Shown in pieces: positions 21,418-48,672 of a stretch of 64,000 bases of DNA; the first letter of the stretch is position 1; every line of letters begins with the position of its first letter. Where the stretch lies: contig JANYDK010000103.1 in the NCBI GenBank assembly GCA_025363655.1, forward strand, positions 1 to 64,000. The letters run 5' to 3'. Source of the stretch: Deltaproteobacteria bacterium. Lineage in GTDB: Bacteria > Myxococcota_A > Polyangia > Polyangiales > JADJMO01. Under the pieces are notes generated by a model that was not told the DNA's origin, did no database searches, and saw nothing but the letters and a program-made list of their open reading frames with translations. The position numbers and the translations under genes were made by a program.

Positions 21418-21440
<23 letters not shown>
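19242..21440 (+). CDS. BatA-like membrane protein with vWA domain
   Basis: 732 residues from GTG 19242. It begins with the BatA/aerotolerance N-terminal module: membrane helix 1-24 (FLFPLALLIAVGVVGPIVAHLLRRRKP), a basic loop, then a second helix near 57-77. A vWA domain follows with the MIDAS motif DDSMS at 100-104 and later VVLLSDLAD. The middle is a long Ala/Asp/Arg-rich extracytoplasmic-type region, and a final helix (LAWLLFALFGGELVL) lies near the C-terminus. Membrane-anchored; its role is inferred from the family. It is paired with DUF58 4 bp upstream and ends overlapping the convergent kinase gene by 23 bp. Confidence 0.85.
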
Positions 21441-22758
<1,318 letters not shown>

Positions 22759-36637: not shown

Positions 36638-37420
36638 TCAGCGACCCGTGAAGCGCGGCGCGCGACGAGCTGCTGCCGCCGCCAAACCTTCGGCGAGGTC
36701 GGCGCTCGCGTAGCTGATCGATTGCTGTTCGGCTTCGAAGGTGAGGGCCGCGTCGAGCGCGACTCGATCGACACCGAGCGTTTGCTTGAGCCCGCGCAGG
36801 GCGAGGGGCGCGTTTCCCGCGAGGGTGCGGGCAAGCGTGAGAGCCTCGTCGAGGACACGCGCCGCAGGGACCGCGCGCAGCGCCATGCCCATCGAGGTCG
36901 CCTCTCGACCATCGAATCGACGCCCCGAGAAGAGCAGCTCGGCCGCCCTTTGTGCGCCGACGCGACGAGAGACCAGGTACGTCGCACCCATGCCGGGGTG
37001 AAGGCCGAGAGAGGCGAAGTTGAGTGCGAGCTTGGCGTCCTCGTCGACGATGCAGAGATCGCAGGCGAGCGCGACGCAGAGACCGGCGCCGATCGCCGCA
37101 CCTTCGACCGCTGCGACGACCGGGACCTCGAGGTCGAGAATGGAGAGATATTTGGCGTAGAACTCGAGCATGAAGGCGCGCGACTCGTCACGCGTGGCGG
37201 CGCGGAGGCGCTCGAGCATGCGCAGGTCACCGCCCGCCGAGAACACCCCGCCGGCACCGGTGAGCACCACCGCGCGGACCTCGGGATCGGCACGAAGCCG
37301 GGCGACGGCAGCGCGCAAGGCGTCGCCGAGCTCGGGCGTCATCGCGTTCTTTGCGTTCTTTCCAGGGGCGTCGGAGAAGACGAGGGTGGCGACGGCACCG
37401 TCGCGAAGAACGTCGAGCAT
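36638..37420 (-). CDS. Crotonase-superfamily (enoyl-CoA hydratase/isomerase) protein
   Basis: 260 residues from ATG 37420; the upstream frame is a shadow of the kinase gene. The crotonase fold is clear: oxyanion-hole motif GAGGVFSAGGDLRMLE, CoA-binding region EGAAIGAGLCVALACDL and LGLHPGMGATYLVSRRVG. The two catalytic Glu residues of enoyl-CoA hydratase are not present: the position after AIGAGL holds Cys-Val, and the second falls in NFASLG. The reaction is therefore open (isomerase, hydrolase or another acyl-CoA reaction). It is 40 bp downstream of the receptor kinase on the same strand. Confidence 0.88.
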   Translation of the reverse strand: MLDVLRDGAVATLVFSDAPGKNAKNAMTPELGDALRAAVARLRADPEVRAVVLTGAGGVFSAGGDLRMLERLRAATRDESRAFMLEFYAKYLSILDLEVPVVAAVEGAAIGAGLCVALACDLCIVDEDAKLALNFASLGLHPGMGATYLVSRRVGAQRAAELLFSGRRFDGREATSMGMALRAVPAARVLDEALTLARTLAGNAPLALRGLKQTLGVDRVALDAALTFEAEQQSISYASADLAEGLAAAAARRAPRFTGR

Positions 37421-37460: not shown

Positions 37461-40010
37461 TCACGGGCAATGCAGCTGGCCGAGCAAGCGATGCTCGGTC
37501 GCCGAGTAGACGAGCCCCGATTCGACGCCATCGGTGGCGAGCCCACTGCCGTCGGCGGCGACGCAGAGGATGGCTTGGTCCATCGCCGTTTCGCCGGTCT
37601 GGAGATCGAAGTCCATGCTCCCGGTCGCGCCGACGACGTCGACGTTGCCACCAGCGACGAGCTCGTCGTACGCCTCGACGATGCCCGCCTGACCGACTTC
37701 GATCGAACGTCCTGGCGGGAGGAGCCGTGCGAGCGATCGCGACAGCACGTCGCCGGTGATCGGCGTCTCGGGGGCCACGGCGTAGGTGGCGTAGGCGAGC
37801 GCGTAGTACGCGTCGTACGTCGAGTTGGGCGCGTTGGTCTCCGTGACGACGTCGCTCGGGAACGTCTCGTGGAAGTGAGCGACGAAGCGCGCGTTCACGG
37901 CCGTCCCGGAGGCGGGCGCCACCCCGAAGACCCTTCGCCGCAGCGACTCGTCGCGACCTATGACTTGGAGAAACGTCTGCCCGATGGTCGCGATGCTCGC
38001 GTAGCGGGGCTTCGTCGCCGCGAGTCTCGGCGGGCTCAGCTTCGACCATTGCGCCTCGAGGGGCGGAACGAGCCCTTCGACCGCGGCGCCTTCGGCCATC
38101 AGGAGGATGACGTCGGGCTGGAAGGTGAGGAGCTCGCTGACGATCTCCGCGTAGCGCGGCGGGTCGGGGGACGTGCCCTCGAGGGTGAGCTCGCGGTAAC
38201 GACCGGCCATCTTCCCATCGGCGACGTTCGCGCCCTCGAGCCGGAGGAGACGCACGATGTCGTCGGCGATACTCGCGCCGAGCCCATTTTTCTCACGAAT
38301 GAGCGCGACACGCGCGGCGCGACCCAGCGCCTTCTCGATCGATGCGGTGACGAACGCGGCGAGCGCCTGTGCCGTCCCATCGGCGCGATACGTCGTACGA
38401 AAAATCAATCGCGGCGCTCCGAGTGGCTGCGGCACGTGCGTCACCAGCGGATTGGTCGACATCGTCACCATCGAGAGCACGTGCTTGGGCAAGAAGCTGG
38501 TGGTCGCCAGCTCGGTGAGCTCGATGCCGCTCTTGAAGCCGAGGACTGCCGGGACGCCGACGTCGTCGACGAGGTGCGCCGCGGCGCGCTTCGAATCGGC
38601 GGCGTCGTCGCAGGAGACGAGACCGAGCGGACGCGCGGAATCACCGGTTTTTTCGAGCGCCCGTGCGAGCATCGCAGCGTCGAAATCGCGGCGGGCCAAG
38701 TCGGCTGCGCGGGCTTCGCGGAGGCCGAACTCGTCACCCGTCGGCCCCGTCTGCGGAAGCAGGGCTCCGAGCCACACCGTGTCGTCGTCGACGAGCGCTC
38801 GCTCATCGGCGAGCACGTGACAGTCGACGGACGCGAGCGGAACGCAGCGCCCTTGCGAACGCTTGCACACGGCCGCGGCGCCCCCTGCGAGCTCGACGCA
38901 CGCGCGGTTCGAGGTGCACGCCTGCGAGCTCGAAGTGGTCGGCGCGCTTGCATCGGCGGGGCGCGGCGCGGCAGACCTCTCGCCGCGCGACCGAGCGATG
39001 AGCGCTCCGAGCAGCAGCACCGCGGCCACACCGGCACCGACGAAGCGCGCGTTCGACCTCGGAGACGGTGCCGCAGCTGGTGGCCGCAGCGCAGCCTCGA
39101 GCTCGGCGAGGAGGACGCCGGCGTTCGGTTGGCGCGCGCTCGGCTTCACCGCCAACGCACGTGCGAGCACCGGCTCCCAAGCGCCGACGTCGATCCCGAC
39201 CTTCTTCGGCGTCGGCCGCGTCGCATCGAACACCGCAGCGAGGCGCTCGTTGGCGTCGCCCTCGGGATACGGACGAACGTGGGTGAGCACTTCCGTGAGC
39301 ATGAGCGCGAGCGAATAGACGTCGGTCCACGGGCCGGTGCGGGTGCCCGCAATCTGCTCCGGAGCCGCGGAGTTCGATGAAAACGCGCGAAAACCGCTGC
39401 TCGTCGTCGTGTCGCCGCTCGGCTCGCGATCGTCTTCTCGGACGTCACGTGTCTTGGCGATCCCGAAGTCGACGACGCGGACGCCTGGCTCGTGCTGCGG
39501 CACCAACATCACGTTGTTCGGTTTCAGATCGCGATGCGTGATTCCGATCGCGTGCGCGGCGGCGATCGCCTCGAGGACCGGCCGGAGCAGCGCGAACGCC
39601 TCCCTCGGCGCGCGCGGCGAAAGGTCGCGTCGCGAGGCGAGGTGCGCCTCCAACGTCTCACCCTCGAGCCACTCGAGGACCATCCAGGGCACGTGTCGCA
39701 CGCCGTCGAGCGCCGTCACGCCGACGTCGAGCACGTCGACGACGGCAGGATGATGGAGACGCGCGATCGCCTTCGCCTCCTCGACGAAGAGCTCGACGTG
39801 ATCGGACCAGGCCGTCACCCCGTCGTCGAGCTGCGGCCGGAGGACCTTGATCGCAATCGGAAGGTCGAGCTCGAGGTGACGCCCGGCGTAGACGATGCCG
39901 AAGCCACCTTCGGCGACGACGCGCTCGACGCGATATTTACGCGCCAACGTCTTGCCGACCAACTCGAAGACGTCGGAAGGATGCGCTCGTCCCTCCATGT
40001 CTCGGCTCAT
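37461..40010 (-). CDS. Receptor-type Ser/Thr kinase fused to a periplasmic ligand-binding domain
   Basis: 849 residues from ATG 40010 (ATG 39998 also possible; TAGTAT lies 10 nt before it). The kinase domain is at about 20-310: EGGFGIVYAG, AIKVL, HRDLKPNN, VVDFGIAK. A single membrane helix (FVGAGVAAVLLLGALIA) near 325-342 separates it from a large extracytoplasmic half. That half begins with a Cys pair region (CTSNRACVELAGG) and then reads as a type I periplasmic-binding protein of the Leu/Ile/Val (Peripla_BP_6) kind: VWLGALLPQTGPTGDEFGLREARAAD, AVLGFKSGIELTEL, RVALIREKNGLG, NAPNSTYDAYYALAYATYA. A ligand outside would control the kinase. Confidence 0.88.
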   Translation of the reverse strand: MSRDMEGRAHPSDVFELVGKTLARKYRVERVVAEGGFGIVYAGRHLELDLPIAIKVLRPQLDDGVTAWSDHVELFVEEAKAIARLHHPAVVDVLDVGVTALDGVRHVPWMVLEWLEGETLEAHLASRRDLSPRAPREAFALLRPVLEAIAAAHAIGITHRDLKPNNVMLVPQHEPGVRVVDFGIAKTRDVREDDREPSGDTTTSSGFRAFSSNSAAPEQIAGTRTGPWTDVYSLALMLTEVLTHVRPYPEGDANERLAAVFDATRPTPKKVGIDVGAWEPVLARALAVKPSARQPNAGVLLAELEAALRPPAAAPSPRSNARFVGAGVAAVLLLGALIARSRGERSAAPRPADASAPTTSSSQACTSNRACVELAGGAAAVCKRSQGRCVPLASVDCHVLADERALVDDDTVWLGALLPQTGPTGDEFGLREARAADLARRDFDAAMLARALEKTGDSARPLGLVSCDDAADSKRAAAHLVDDVGVPAVLGFKSGIELTELATTSFLPKHVLSMVTMSTNPLVTHVPQPLGAPRLIFRTTYRADGTAQALAAFVTASIEKALGRAARVALIREKNGLGASIADDIVRLLRLEGANVADGKMAGRYRELTLEGTSPDPPRYAEIVSELLTFQPDVILLMAEGAAVEGLVPPLEAQWSKLSPPRLAATKPRYASIATIGQTFLQVIGRDESLRRRVFGVAPASGTAVNARFVAHFHETFPSDVVTETNAPNSTYDAYYALAYATYAVAPETPITGDVLSRSLARLLPPGRSIEVGQAGIVEAYDELVAGGNVDVVGATGSMDFDLQTGETAMDQAILCVAADGSGLATDGVESGLVYSATEHRLLGQLHCP

Positions 40011-40751: not shown

Positions 40752-42155
40752 TCACCGCCGCTGGCGAAACGACTCGGCGTCGATCTCGAGCCTTTGCAGC
40801 CACCGCTGCACCTGCCGGCGCGCCGTTCCCATCAAGCGCGCGACCTCGCTGACGTTGCCGTGCGTCTCGGCGAGCTTGCCGAGGAGATCGCGCCTGAGCG
40901 CCTCGTCGGAGGGACCCGTGAGGCCGCTCTCGGCGTCCTCGGTCGCGGGCGGCTCAGCGTCGGCGATCGCGCTGGGAAGCTCTTTCAGCGTCACGAGGCC
41001 GTCGTCGTCGGCGAGGACGCAGATGGCGGCGAGGCACTGCTGCAGCTCGCGCACGTTCATCGGCCACCGGTAGCGGAGCATCGCCGACACCACCTCGTCG
41101 TCGAGCTCGATGCGCGGCGGCGGCACGACACGTCCTTGTTCGACGAGCCCGGCGATGAGGAGGCCCAAGTCGACGATGCGCTCACGGAGCGGCTCGGCCT
41201 CGAAAACGAAGCCTGCGAGGCGCGCGTAGAGGTCACGACGAAAGCTACCCTCGGCCATCCGCTGGTCGAGTGGGGCGTGCGTCGCGGCGATGACGCGGAC
41301 GTCGATCGGGATCGTTTGGCTACCACCGACCGGCACCACCTCTTCTTCTTGCAGCACGCGGAGCAGCGCGGCCTGCGACGCCGGCGGGAGATCGCCGATC
41401 TCGTCGAGGAGCAAGGTGCCTCCCGCGGCCGCACGAAAGAGCCCGGGCTCGTCGCGGAGGGCTCCGCTGAACGCGCCCTTCACGTGACCGAAGAGCTGCG
41501 CCTCGACGAGGTTTTCCGGGATCGCTCCGCAGTTGACCGCGAGGAACGGACCGGGGCGCCCGGTGAGGCGATGAATCGCCCGCGCGAGGACCTCCTTGCC
41601 GGTGCCGGTCTCGCCGAGGAGGAGCGTCGGCAAGGGCGATGCTCCGACGCGCGCGAGCCTGGCGAGTTGTTTCGCATAGAGCGGATCGAGCGTGGCGAAG
41701 CCGAGCGGCTCTCGAGCCTTCGACGACGGATCGAGATCGCCGGCGTTGCCACGTGAGGCTTCGTCGACGATCTCGCGATAGATGAAGTGCGTCTGACCGA
41801 GCTGGAGATGATCGCCATCGGCGAGGCGCGCGCTCGTCACCTCGGCGCCATTGCGCCGCGTGCCGTTGGTCGAGCCCCCGTCGGTGAGATGGAAGACGCC
41901 GTCGCGCCGCGCGATCGTCGCGTGCGAGGTCGACATCTTCGCGTCGGCGACGATCAGCTCGCGTCGACGATCGTCTTGTTTTCGTAGGCTTCGCGCGTCA
42001 CCTCGTCCGATCGTGAGCTCGTCCACCTTGGCGAGCGAGACCCGAAGGCCTCCAGCGCCGAGACGATTCGCCTCGAGCACGAGAAAGAGAAACGGCTCCA
42101 CCGTCGTCGAAGGATGGCGCTTGTGCGCCGTCGCGGGCTCGGTCTGGTCGCGCAT
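40752..42155 (-). CDS. FHA-domain sigma-54-dependent transcriptional activator
   Basis: 467 residues. An FHA domain at about 46-120 has the IGRG, S-x-S-H and GSTNGT (94-99) marks, so it should bind phosphothreonine. The AAA+ domain follows: Walker A GETGTGKE 181-188, sigma-54 contact loop GAFSGA 227-232 (GAFTGA in most activators), Walker B LLLDEIGD 248-255. A Fis-type helix-turn-helix ends the protein (NVSEVARLMGTARRQVQRWLQRL). FHA plus sigma-54 activation is typical of myxobacteria, where kinases can control such factors; four kinases are encoded in this window. Confidence 0.95.
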   Translation of the reverse strand: MRDQTEPATAHKRHPSTTVEPFLFLVLEANRLGAGGLRVSLAKVDELTIGRGDARSLRKQDDRRRELIVADAKMSTSHATIARRDGVFHLTDGGSTNGTRRNGAEVTSARLADGDHLQLGQTHFIYREIVDEASRGNAGDLDPSSKAREPLGFATLDPLYAKQLARLARVGASPLPTLLLGETGTGKEVLARAIHRLTGRPGPFLAVNCGAIPENLVEAQLFGHVKGAFSGALRDEPGLFRAAAGGTLLLDEIGDLPPASQAALLRVLQEEEVVPVGGSQTIPIDVRVIAATHAPLDQRMAEGSFRRDLYARLAGFVFEAEPLRERIVDLGLLIAGLVEQGRVVPPPRIELDDEVVSAMLRYRWPMNVRELQQCLAAICVLADDDGLVTLKELPSAIADAEPPATEDAESGLTGPSDEALRRDLLGKLAETHGNVSEVARLMGTARRQVQRWLQRLEIDAESFRQRR

Positions 42156-44715: not shown

Positions 44716-47700
44716 TTGCGCGGCGCCCTGTACGTCGCGAAGGGGCACGTGTCGGCGAGCATCGTCAGCAGGGTCGCAGATGAATTCGGCGGGACCGACC
44801 GCTATGCCGTGGTGCGCCGCATCGGTGCAGGCGGGATGGGCGTCGTCTATCACACCGTCGATCGCGAGCGAGGCGTCGACGTCGCGCTGAAGACGCTCCG
44901 CCACCTCAACCCTGGCGCCATCTACCACCTGAAGCAGGAGTTCCGCTCCCTCGCCGATCTCGCGCACCCCAATCTCGTGACGCTCCACGATCTCGTCATC
45001 GGCGACGGGCTCTGGTTCTTCACGATGGAGCTGATCGACGGCAAGGACTTCGTCGCCTACGCCCGTTCGAGTCACGCGGCGCCCGCGGTCGAGACGATGG
45101 ATGCCGAGGTCGCACCGAGCGCGCCGCCGTCGGCTCCCCGGGACGCGCTCGCGGCTGGCTCTCGCGTGCAGCTCAGCTCACGCCTCGACGTCGCCCGCCT
45201 GCGCAATGCCTTACGACAGCTCGTCGAGGGCATCGCCACGCTGCACCGCGCGAGCAAGCTCCACCGCGACATCAAGCCGTCCAACGTGATGGTCGAGCCG
45301 AGCGGGCGCGTCGTCATCCTCGACTTCGGCCTCGCCGCCGACTTCGCGGCGATGGACGATCGCGACCGTTCGGCGATGGATCTCAACAGCGCCGAGCAGA
45401 CCGTGCTCGGTACGCCCGAGTACATGTCGCCCGAGCAAGGCAACGCCAGCCCGGTGCCGCTCGGACCGGCGACAGATTGGTACAGCGTCGGCGTCATGCT
45501 CTTCGAGGCGCTCACCGGCGGCCTGCCCTTCCAAGGCGGACCGCTCGAGATCCTGATGGCGAAGTGCGAAGCCGACGGTCCCGCGCCGAGCGAGTTCGTC
45601 GACGGCGTGCCGGAAGATCTCGATCGACTCTGCGCCGACCTCCTGCAGCGACGTCCCGACAAGCGGCCGACTGGAGAAGAGATCGCGCGGCGCATCGAGT
45701 CGACGTCGGTGCCGATGCCGGTCTCGCAGCGCAGCCTCCCAGCGCCTCCCTCCCAGCGCAGCGGCGCGCCGCTTCCGCTCGTCGGACGCGAGATGCACAC
45801 CGCCATGTTGCAGGCGGCCTTCGCGCGCACACGGCAAGGTCGCGCCATCGCCGTGCACGTCTATGGTTCGGCCGGCCTCGGGAAATCGTCGCTGGTGCGA
45901 AACTTCATCGACTGGGCAGTCGAGTCGCAGCGTGCGGTCGCGCTCGTCGGCCGCTGTTACGAGCGCGAATCGGTGCCCTACAAAGCGCTCGACGGCGTCA
46001 TCGACGCGCTCTCGCGACATCTCCGCCGCATGTCCCGGCTCCAGGTGGAGGCGGTCTTGCCGCGCGACGTTCGCGCCCTCTCGCGGCTATTCCCGGTGCT
46101 CCTTCGCGTCGAGTCGATCGCCAAGGCGCCGAAGCTCGCGCTCGAGCAGGCCGATCCGAAAGAGCTGAGAAAACGTGCCTTTGCTGCGCTTCGCGAGCTC
46201 CTCGCGCGGGTCGCCGATCGTCGTCCGCTCGTCGTCGCCATCGACGATCTGCAATGGGGCGACGTCGACAGCATGACCTGCCTCGTCGAGGTCCTCCGCC
46301 CGCCGAGCCCGCCCGCGGTGCTCTTCATCGCCAGCTATCGTCGCGAAGACGTCGACAAGAGCCCCGCCCTGCGCGCGCTCGAAGCCCTGGAAAATCACGG
46401 AGGGTCGAAGGCGTCGATGGCGCGCATCACGGTCGCGCCCGCGATCGTCGATCTGCGACGGAGCACGAGCTCGCTCCGCCGCGTCCGCGTCGACACTGCG
46501 TGCGAGGTGCGTCGACTGGCGATCGAGCGGCTCGGCAACGACGACAGCGCCGCGCTCGTGAAGACCCTCCTCGACGCCGAGAGCCCGACCGTCCGCGCGC
46601 ACGCCGCCACGATCGTCGCCGAAGCGGGTGGCAGTCCCTTCCTCACGCTCGAGTTCGTTCGCTACCTGCGAGGCCTCGAAGAGCGCGGCGAGGGGCTCGA
46701 TGGCAAGGCGATCACCATCGAGGCGGCAATTTCAGCTCGTTTCGATGCGCTGCCCGACGACGCTCGACGTCTCCTCGAAGCGGTCGCGGTCGCGGGTCAC
46801 CCGATCGCGGTGGACGTCGCGCGCAAGTCGGCGGGGGTCTCCGACGAGCGGCCGGCGCTCGCGCTCCTTCGTACGCAACAGCTCGTGCGCACGTTGCAGG
46901 TCGGCGAGCTGGCGACGACCGCGCTCGAGACCTACCACGATCGAATTCGCGAGGCGGTGGTGGCGCGGCTCACGCCGACGACGCTGGTGACGATGCACCG
47001 CGCGCTCGCCCGCACGCTCGAGGCCTCGGGAAATGAAGACCCGGAGGCGATCTGCACCCATTACCGCGCCGCCGGCGACGACCTCAAAGCGAGCGCCTTC
47101 GCCGCCCTCGCCGGTGCACGCGCCGCGCGAACTCTCGCCTTCGAGCGCGCGGCGATGCTCTATCGGCTGGCGATCGAGCTCGGCGACGCCAAAGATCCGG
47201 CGACGCGCGGACATCGCATCAAGCTCGCCGACGCGCTCGTCGACTGCGGGCGCAGCGCCGAAGCCGCCCACGAGTACTTGGCAGCGGCAGCCGGCGCGAC
47301 GGGCGACGAGGCGCTCGATTTGCAACGTCGCGCCGCCGAGCAGATGCTGGTCAGTGGTCACATCGACGAAGGTCTCTCGGTCGTCCCGGCGGTGCTCGAG
47401 GCCCTTGGCGCCGATCTCCCCGAGACCCCGCGCGGCGCCCTCAGCTCGCTGCTCTTGCGCCGCTTTCAGCTGTGGATGCGCGGGCTCGAGCCGTCGAAGC
47501 CGAAGGCCACCGTCGATCCGCGCGAGCTGCTCCGCATCGACACCTATTGGTCGCTCGGCATCGGCCTCTCGATGGTCGACAACATCCGCGCGCAGGACTG
47601 TCACACGAGGCACCTGCTCTACGCGCTCCGTTCGGGCGATCCGTATCGCGTCGCTCGCGGTGTCGCCGCCGAGGCCGGCTTTCGATCGTCGGTCGGTGGA

Positions 47701-48672
47701 CCCGCTCGTGCGAAGACGCGCGCGCTCGTTCTTCGCGCACAAGAGCTCGCCGAGAAGGTCGGTCACCCGCACGCGCTCGGGCTCGCCGCCGGCGCCGCGG
47801 GGCACGAGAGCTACCACCTCGGCGAATGGCACGTCGCGCGTGAACGCCTGGAAAACGCAGAGAAAATCCTTCGCGAGCGCTGCGCCGGCGTCGGTTGGGA
47901 GCTCGCCTCGGTCGTTACCTTCCTCCTCGGCGCGCTCTACTACCTCGGTGACGTTCGCGCCCTCGGCGATCGCGTGCCGGCGTTGATCGACGAAGCCGAG
48001 CGACGCGGCGATCTCTTCCTTCTCACCAACCTCCGGCTCGGTCACGCCAGCTTCCTCTGGCTCGCGGACGACGATCCCGACGGCGGCCTCCGCGACGTCA
48101 AGAGCGCGCTCGATGGTTGGTCGCAGCGCGGCTACCACGTGCAGCACTACTACGAGCTGGCGGCACGCGCACAGATCCTCCTCTATGCCGGCAAGGCGAA
48201 GAAGGCGCTCGAGGCGCTCGATGCGGCGTGGCCGGCGCTCGAAGCGTCGTTCATGTTGCGGCTCCAGCGCGTGCGCATCGAAGCGTTCGTGCTCCGCGCG
48301 CGCACCGCCCTCAGCTGCGCGAGCCTCTGCGAAGGTGCCGAACGCGAGGCGCTGATCGCGAGAGCACGCAAAGACCTCACCCGGGTCGAGCGCGAGCACA
48401 TGCCTTGGGGCGACGCCCTCGTCAGGCTCGCGCGCGCGGGAATTTTCGGCCTCCAGGGTCACGCCGAGACCCAAGCGAGGGAGCTCGAGGTGGCCGCCGA
48501 TCTCCTCCAGAAGTGCAACATGCACCTCCACGCCGCCGCCGCCCATCACCGCTTCGGCGAGCTCGTCGGCGGCGACGACGGCAAATCGACCCGCAAAGAG
48601 GCCGACGCGTACTTCGCCACCGAGGGCATCGTCGATCCAGAGCGAGTGACGCTCCTGCTGGTCTCGGCCTAG
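44716..48672 (+). CDS. Multidomain Ser/Thr kinase with AAA ATPase and TPR-like repeats
   Basis: 1318 residues from TTG 44716 (GTG 44749, with AAGGGG upstream, is the alternative). The kinase domain spans about 30-320: glycine loop GAGGMG, Lys59 (ALKTL), HRDIKPSN with Asp185, DFGLA at 203-207, TPEYMSPEQ. Next is an AAA/STAND-type ATPase: Walker A GSAGLGKS 384-391 and Walker B LVVAIDD 505-511. Residues about 700-1318 are Ala/Leu/Arg-rich helical repeats, like the TPR half of the PknK/STAND kinases. Such proteins act as ATP-switched signalling hubs in the cytoplasm. No membrane helix is seen. Its promoter carries a 25-bp palindrome. Confidence 0.92.
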   Translation: MRGALYVAKGHVSASIVSRVADEFGGTDRYAVVRRIGAGGMGVVYHTVDRERGVDVALKTLRHLNPGAIYHLKQEFRSLADLAHPNLVTLHDLVIGDGLWFFTMELIDGKDFVAYARSSHAAPAVETMDAEVAPSAPPSAPRDALAAGSRVQLSSRLDVARLRNALRQLVEGIATLHRASKLHRDIKPSNVMVEPSGRVVILDFGLAADFAAMDDRDRSAMDLNSAEQTVLGTPEYMSPEQGNASPVPLGPATDWYSVGVMLFEALTGGLPFQGGPLEILMAKCEADGPAPSEFVDGVPEDLDRLCADLLQRRPDKRPTGEEIARRIESTSVPMPVSQRSLPAPPSQRSGAPLPLVGREMHTAMLQAAFARTRQGRAIAVHVYGSAGLGKSSLVRNFIDWAVESQRAVALVGRCYERESVPYKALDGVIDALSRHLRRMSRLQVEAVLPRDVRALSRLFPVLLRVESIAKAPKLALEQADPKELRKRAFAALRELLARVADRRPLVVAIDDLQWGDVDSMTCLVEVLRPPSPPAVLFIASYRREDVDKSPALRALEALENHGGSKASMARITVAPAIVDLRRSTSSLRRVRVDTACEVRRLAIERLGNDDSAALVKTLLDAESPTVRAHAATIVAEAGGSPFLTLEFVRYLRGLEERGEGLDGKAITIEAAISARFDALPDDARRLLEAVAVAGHPIAVDVARKSAGVSDERPALALLRTQQLVRTLQVGELATTALETYHDRIREAVVARLTPTTLVTMHRALARTLEASGNEDPEAICTHYRAAGDDLKASAFAALAGARAARTLAFERAAMLYRLAIELGDAKDPATRGHRIKLADALVDCGRSAEAAHEYLAAAAGATGDEALDLQRRAAEQMLVSGHIDEGLSVVPAVLEALGADLPETPRGALSSLLLRRFQLWMRGLEPSKPKATVDPRELLRIDTYWSLGIGLSMVDNIRAQDCHTRHLLYALRSGDPYRVARGVAAEAGFRSSVGGPARAKTRALVLRAQELAEKVGHPHALGLAAGAAGHESYHLGEWHVARERLENAEKILRERCAGVGWELASVVTFLLGALYYLGDVRALGDRVPALIDEAERRGDLFLLTNLRLGHASFLWLADDDPDGGLRDVKSALDGWSQRGYHVQHYYELAARAQILLYAGKAKKALEALDAAWPALEASFMLRLQRVRIEAFVLRARTALSCASLCEGAEREALIARARKDLTRVEREHMPWGDALVRLARAGIFGLQGHAETQARELEVAADLLQKCNMHLHAAAAHHRFGELVGGDDGKSTRKEADAYFATEGIVDPERVTLLLVSA

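Follow-up and report, generated by a model that had tools for sequence, protein, structure and literature searches.

The window analyzed here, a stretch of 64,000 nucleotides, encodes at positions 37461..40010 (-) a receptor Ser/Thr kinase of 849 aa, delineated from an open reading frame and its translation. The start codon is assumed to be the ATG at 40010, where a ribosome site is not clearly seen and upstream of which the frame remains open. The N-terminal half of the protein consists of a Hanks kinase domain (residues 26-310; 39081..39935, -), identified by a Pfam match, a structure-sequence match and motifs. In the 849-aa protein, the Pfam Pkinase model matches residues 26-263 (E 1.6e-30), and the domain sequence matches the PknA/PknB structures (E 4e-30). 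The glycine loop (35-41), K55, HRDLKPNN (159-166), DFG (181-183) and APE (216-218) are all present, so that the Lys, HRD, DFG and APE motifs of Hanks-type Ser/Thr kinases are complete, and the kinase is, by its motifs, intact.

A single membrane helix follows (residues 321-339; 38994..39050, -; mean hydropathy 2.1 over 19 residues), in a position common to all fused relatives described below. All 8 cysteines of the protein lie C-terminal of this helix, with none in the kinase half, which is consistent with export of the outer half; the latter is predicted to lie on the outer side of the membrane. Five of these cysteines form a module (residues 365-397; 38820..38918, -), defined by conservation in the alignment, that is shared by the fused protein and its stand-alone relatives and is retained in 18/18 members of the fused clade and in 90-99% of the stand-alone sequences. 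The full-length structural model has an overall pLDDT of 73.8 and falls below 50 at residues 312-362, around the membrane segment, and we therefore draw no conclusion on the geometry of the kinase relative to the sensor.

The fold of the outer half

The remainder of the chain (residues 411-849; 37464..38780, -) is a type I periplasmic-binding-protein (PBP) domain, as indicated by AlphaFold2, comparison with LivJ and a profile match. The AlphaFold2 model of residues 361-849, computed from an input with twelve homologs, has a pLDDT of 87.7 and a pTM of 0.88 and folds into two lobes, the outcome anticipated when structure prediction was proposed as a check in the preliminary description of this DNA. 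When this model was compared with the PDB using VIA-align, LivJ, LivK and leucine-binding proteins ranked first (Z 28-30), the best match being LivJ 4gnr (Z 30.2, rmsd 3.1, 338 residues aligned), with class C GPCR ectodomains (taste, GABA-B and metabotropic glutamate receptors) close behind at Z about 27. The two Rossmann-like lobes characteristic of the type I PBP fold are present, and most of a known member can be aligned.

Sequence searches were less sensitive. No Pfam model matched the window ectodomain at E<=1, and phmmer of the ectodomain against the PDB returned nothing useful. For Peripla_BP_6 (PF13458), with a cut-off of 31.7 bits, the window ectodomain falls short, as does one paralog in the same genome (contig C38, 23.1 bits), and the other paralog (contig C89) exceeds the cut-off, with 37.5 bits in the genome search. 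A profile of 12 homologs searched against PDB sequences retrieved a Leu/Ile/Val-binding protein homolog (7e-7). Given that the outer half has no Pfam match, its sequence by itself would be no proof of the fold, which is supplied by the profile and the structure. The earlier proposal of a single chain in which a complete Hanks kinase is followed by one membrane helix and by a PBP domain of the Leu/Ile/Val type is thereby borne out by Pfam, hydropathy, AlphaFold2 and the match to LivJ, and the window protein can plausibly be regarded as a receptor kinase in one piece.

On the same strand, 40 bp downstream of the receptor gene, lies an enoyl-CoA hydratase-like gene (36638..37420, -; start 37420; Pfam ECH_1, E 3e-51) that is possibly co-transcribed with it, although we do not claim it as a part of the receptor. 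Upstream, also on the same strand, a gene at 40752-42155 (-) encodes an FHA domain and a sigma-54 activator in one protein, with a small lipoprotein-like ORF on the opposite strand between it and the receptor gene. Because FHA domains read phospho-threonine, this protein is a putative output of the kinase.

One sensor family and its kinases

A single-sequence scan of the genome contigs yielded no relatives, and a profile scan recovered them. The window's own genome has two fused paralogs (on C38 and C89), 36-40% identical to the window protein over the ectodomain and located on other contigs, and one stand-alone relative (C85). The phylogenetic spread, another point singled out for checking, turned out to be phylum-wide, with the ectodomain family present in 146/379 genomes; scoring was limited to four candidates in each genome, which makes the numbers of members per genome lower limits. 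Fusions were found in several genomes, namely the window's own genome, a Myxococcales MAG (GL140_1), Kiruna3_bin-1548, Polyangium strains and Polyangia 2_bin.15, and further ones in two distant families, G122 and G257. In G122, a separate fusion (L160:4685-7819, -) consists of a kinase, a helix and a PBP domain, followed by what appears by eye to be a C-terminal sulfatase-modifying-factor-like domain. When plasmids were searched by tblastn with a stand-alone member, the matches listed were all either binding proteins of transporters or stretches lacking annotation.

In the PBP tree, the 18 fused Polyangiales ectodomains, 2 of which end at contig ends before the kinase, form a single, fully supported clade, and the G122/G257 fusions represent a second origin. 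The kinases attached to these ectodomains do not show such unity. In a tree of 45 kinases, the label "fused" takes six changes, five of them forced by well supported branches. Placement of all fused kinases in one clade is rejected (p-AU 9e-89), and monophyly of the three from the window's own genome is rejected as well (p-AU 3e-4). In that genome, the kinases nearest to the kinase domain of the window protein are attached to different outer parts; the kinase of the fused paralog on C38 scores 83 bits against this domain, far below the 213 bits of the best match. At least five lineages are represented among the fused Polyangiales kinases, and because the ectodomains are one clade and the kinases are not, the sensor has been retained while moving from one kinase lineage to another. 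A combination of the window kinase lineage with this ectodomain was found only in the window's own genome among the 38 searched, the 37 related genomes yielding none, with two candidate ectodomains cut by contig ends.

The stand-alone members often have kinases as neighbors. For 53 of the 94 stand-alone PBP domains, from 14 of 17 families, a kinase domain is encoded within 2.5 kb, compared with 12.5% for controls consisting of random positions in 40 regions of 20 kb on the same contigs. A frequent third gene, adjoining the PBP gene, encodes a TPR protein with hydrophobic segments; both a kinase and a TPR gene are within 2.5 kb in 42/94 loci, against 1.8% in controls, and in all 42 the two are on one strand. 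Within a family, the orientation towards the PBP gene is usually the same. Kinship among the genomes makes nominal p-values too small, and more weight is therefore due to the occurrence in many families. Such three-gene modules occur, for example, at L193, L196, L202, L174 and L180, and in the window's own genome on contig C85 (L244:2258-6787), where the trio is full and the PBP gene is convergent. The module kinase often has a PEGA-like end, its partners being the TPR protein and a PBP lipoprotein. Two loci of one family (f26; L149 and L156) carry a tandem pair of stand-alone PBP genes with no kinase gene within 2.5 kb.

These patterns could reflect a phylum-wide sensing pathway of Myxococcota, in which a PBP lipoprotein that keeps the amino-acid clamp would act with a TPR membrane protein and a Hanks kinase. 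On at least two occasions this pathway would have been condensed into receptor kinases of a single chain, and in Polyangiales the captured sensor would have been adapted to a different ligand and spread over five or more kinase lineages; we advance this broader scenario tentatively, rating it at slightly below even odds.

The ligand clamp and the nature of the signal

To compare the binding pockets, 113 family members were aligned with LivJ and LivK, and clamp positions were numbered as in E. coli LivJ, where Ser79, Thr102, Tyr150 and Glu/Asp226 are the residues that we take to be the amino-acid grip. At 13-20% identity to LivJ, with Ser79 and Thr102 possibly one residue off, this alignment indicates that the stand-alone proteins keep Ser79 in 88/93, Thr102 in 85/93, Tyr150 in 87/93 and Asp226 in 84/93 sequences. 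The fusions of G122 and G257 likewise keep the clamp, with E at 226. Within the fused clade, none of the 18 sequences has Tyr150, and position 226 is acidic in 1/18 (4/18 when an offset of one residue is tolerated). In the window protein, the position of Tyr150 is occupied by Leu577 (38280..38282, -) and that of Glu226 by Ala674 (37989..37991, -), with neither an aromatic residue nor an acid within one residue of these positions, so that the four-residue clamp of the Leu/Ile/Val receptors is incomplete. Other residues are fixed within the fused clade, namely R440, F492 and R534 (18/18) and R572 (17/18), in a set of which 7 of the 18 rows are close Polyangium-type relatives. That these residues are fixed where the clamp is lost points to retooling rather than random decay.

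Our preferred reading, to which we assign a probability of about 0.65, is that the window protein is a single-pass receptor Ser/Thr kinase of Polyangiales whose PBP sensor was taken over from a lipoprotein family of Myxococcota that elsewhere has its genes next to those of separate kinases, and that it is gated by a ligand, the amino-acid clamp having been lost. Under the proposed mechanism, the ligand would induce closure or pairing of the PBP lobes, which in turn would bring the inner kinase domains together, presumably by dimerization, and the juxtaposed domains would then autophosphorylate. Dimerization-triggered autophosphorylation has been proposed for other single-pass Hanks kinases.

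The preliminary description had instead envisaged a direct nutrient or amino-acid receptor. A kinase switched by the supply of free Leu/Ile/Val-type amino acids would agree with the fold, with the closest structures and with the clamp retained in the stand-alone relatives and the G122/G257 fusion, but the substitutions at both positions of the window protein, and the absence of Tyr150 throughout its clade, make this quite improbable here. Judged from the pocket residues, binding of amino acids is a better reading for the stand-alone proteins and the G122/G257 fusion than for the window protein, which is more likely to be a receptor for some other ligand or to carry a repurposed domain; any ligand would probably be other than a simple alpha-amino acid. 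The loss of the clamp would also fit a PBP half that no longer binds a small ligand and serves in dimerization or docking, with the stand-alone lipoprotein, the TPR membrane protein or some component of the envelope as conceivable partners: ligand-free binding-protein folds are known in other receptors, and relatives of the domain sit beside partner genes. Yet a TPR gene adjoins 0/12 of the fused loci scanned, and residues peculiar to the clade, close to the LivJ pocket segments, stay fixed even though the attached kinases differ, which speaks against random drift; we consider a docking role unlikely, though deserving of some weight. The genome is a 150-contig assembly, and an assembly or gene-fusion artefact was considered as well; the recurrence of this architecture in two paralogs from separate contigs and in several other genomes, those of named Polyangium strains among them, leads us to reject it, with a negligible residual chance.

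Relationship to known receptor systems

Kinases fused to solute-binding domains have been noted before, with MSMEG_1200 and about 260 more in InterPro (Bhattacharyya et al. 2018, PMC6069109), including representatives in Mycobacterium and Streptomyces, and kinases genetically linked to solute-binding proteins were noted as well (PMC6069109). Hence, the one-chain architecture stands, but not as an unprecedented class. The window protein, like MSMEG_1200/StpK7 (NF052427), combines a Hanks kinase and a solute-binding domain in one polypeptide, with one helix between them. It reaches 112.8 bits with the StpK7 model NF052427, against a cut-off of 900, and through the kinase part only; unlike in StpK7, its PBP half is invisible to Pfam and located behind a five-Cys module, and the clamp is lost.

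The GlnH-GlnX-PknG system of Actinobacteria (PMC6069109, PMC9769921) follows the same logic, in that an outer binding protein controls a Ser/Thr kinase, and its set of three genes (lipoprotein, membrane protein and kinase) is echoed by the kinase/TPR/lipoprotein module of Myxococcota. The resemblance of the window protein is an analogy of logic only, given that it is one chain with a kinase of a different lineage, where the actinobacterial pathway has a PknG-type kinase and encodes GlnX and GlnH separately, and the middle gene of the Myxococcota module encodes a TPR protein, whereas GlnX is a four-helix-bundle receptor. With LivJ and LivK, the PBP half shares the fold and remote sequence homology, but it has no implied role in transport, is fused to a kinase, and differs in the lost clamp, the extra Cys module and a long C-terminal end. 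A flytrap sensor on a membrane signaling protein is also found in class C GPCRs, other Venus-flytrap receptors and BvgS-type sensor kinases (PMC4352136), where the output is a G protein (class C GPCRs) or a histidine kinase (BvgS-type) in place of a Hanks kinase.

No named description in myxobacteria was found in the open-access literature, and as far as that search shows, the following are new: the partly Pfam-invisible Myxococcota family, a sensor whose kinases have been exchanged, a fused clade that has lost the amino-acid clamp, and the module of kinase, TPR protein and lipoprotein. Because the PBP half of the window protein matches no Pfam model, such receptors are hidden in annotation. 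If the proposed reading holds, they would constitute a widespread, little-studied route to small-molecule sensing in this phylum, in which the gene neighborhoods name a kinase, a lipoprotein and a TPR protein as candidate partners. The stimuli of bacterial Ser/Thr kinases have been called an outstanding question (PMC6069109), and a binding-protein sensor offers a handle on the stimulus that can be screened with ligands. The genome of the window protein contains more than 150 kinase matches, and the window itself encodes an additional Hanks kinase of 446 aa (21418-22758, -) and a 1318-aa protein in which a Hanks kinase is followed by an AAA ATPase domain (44716-48672, +).
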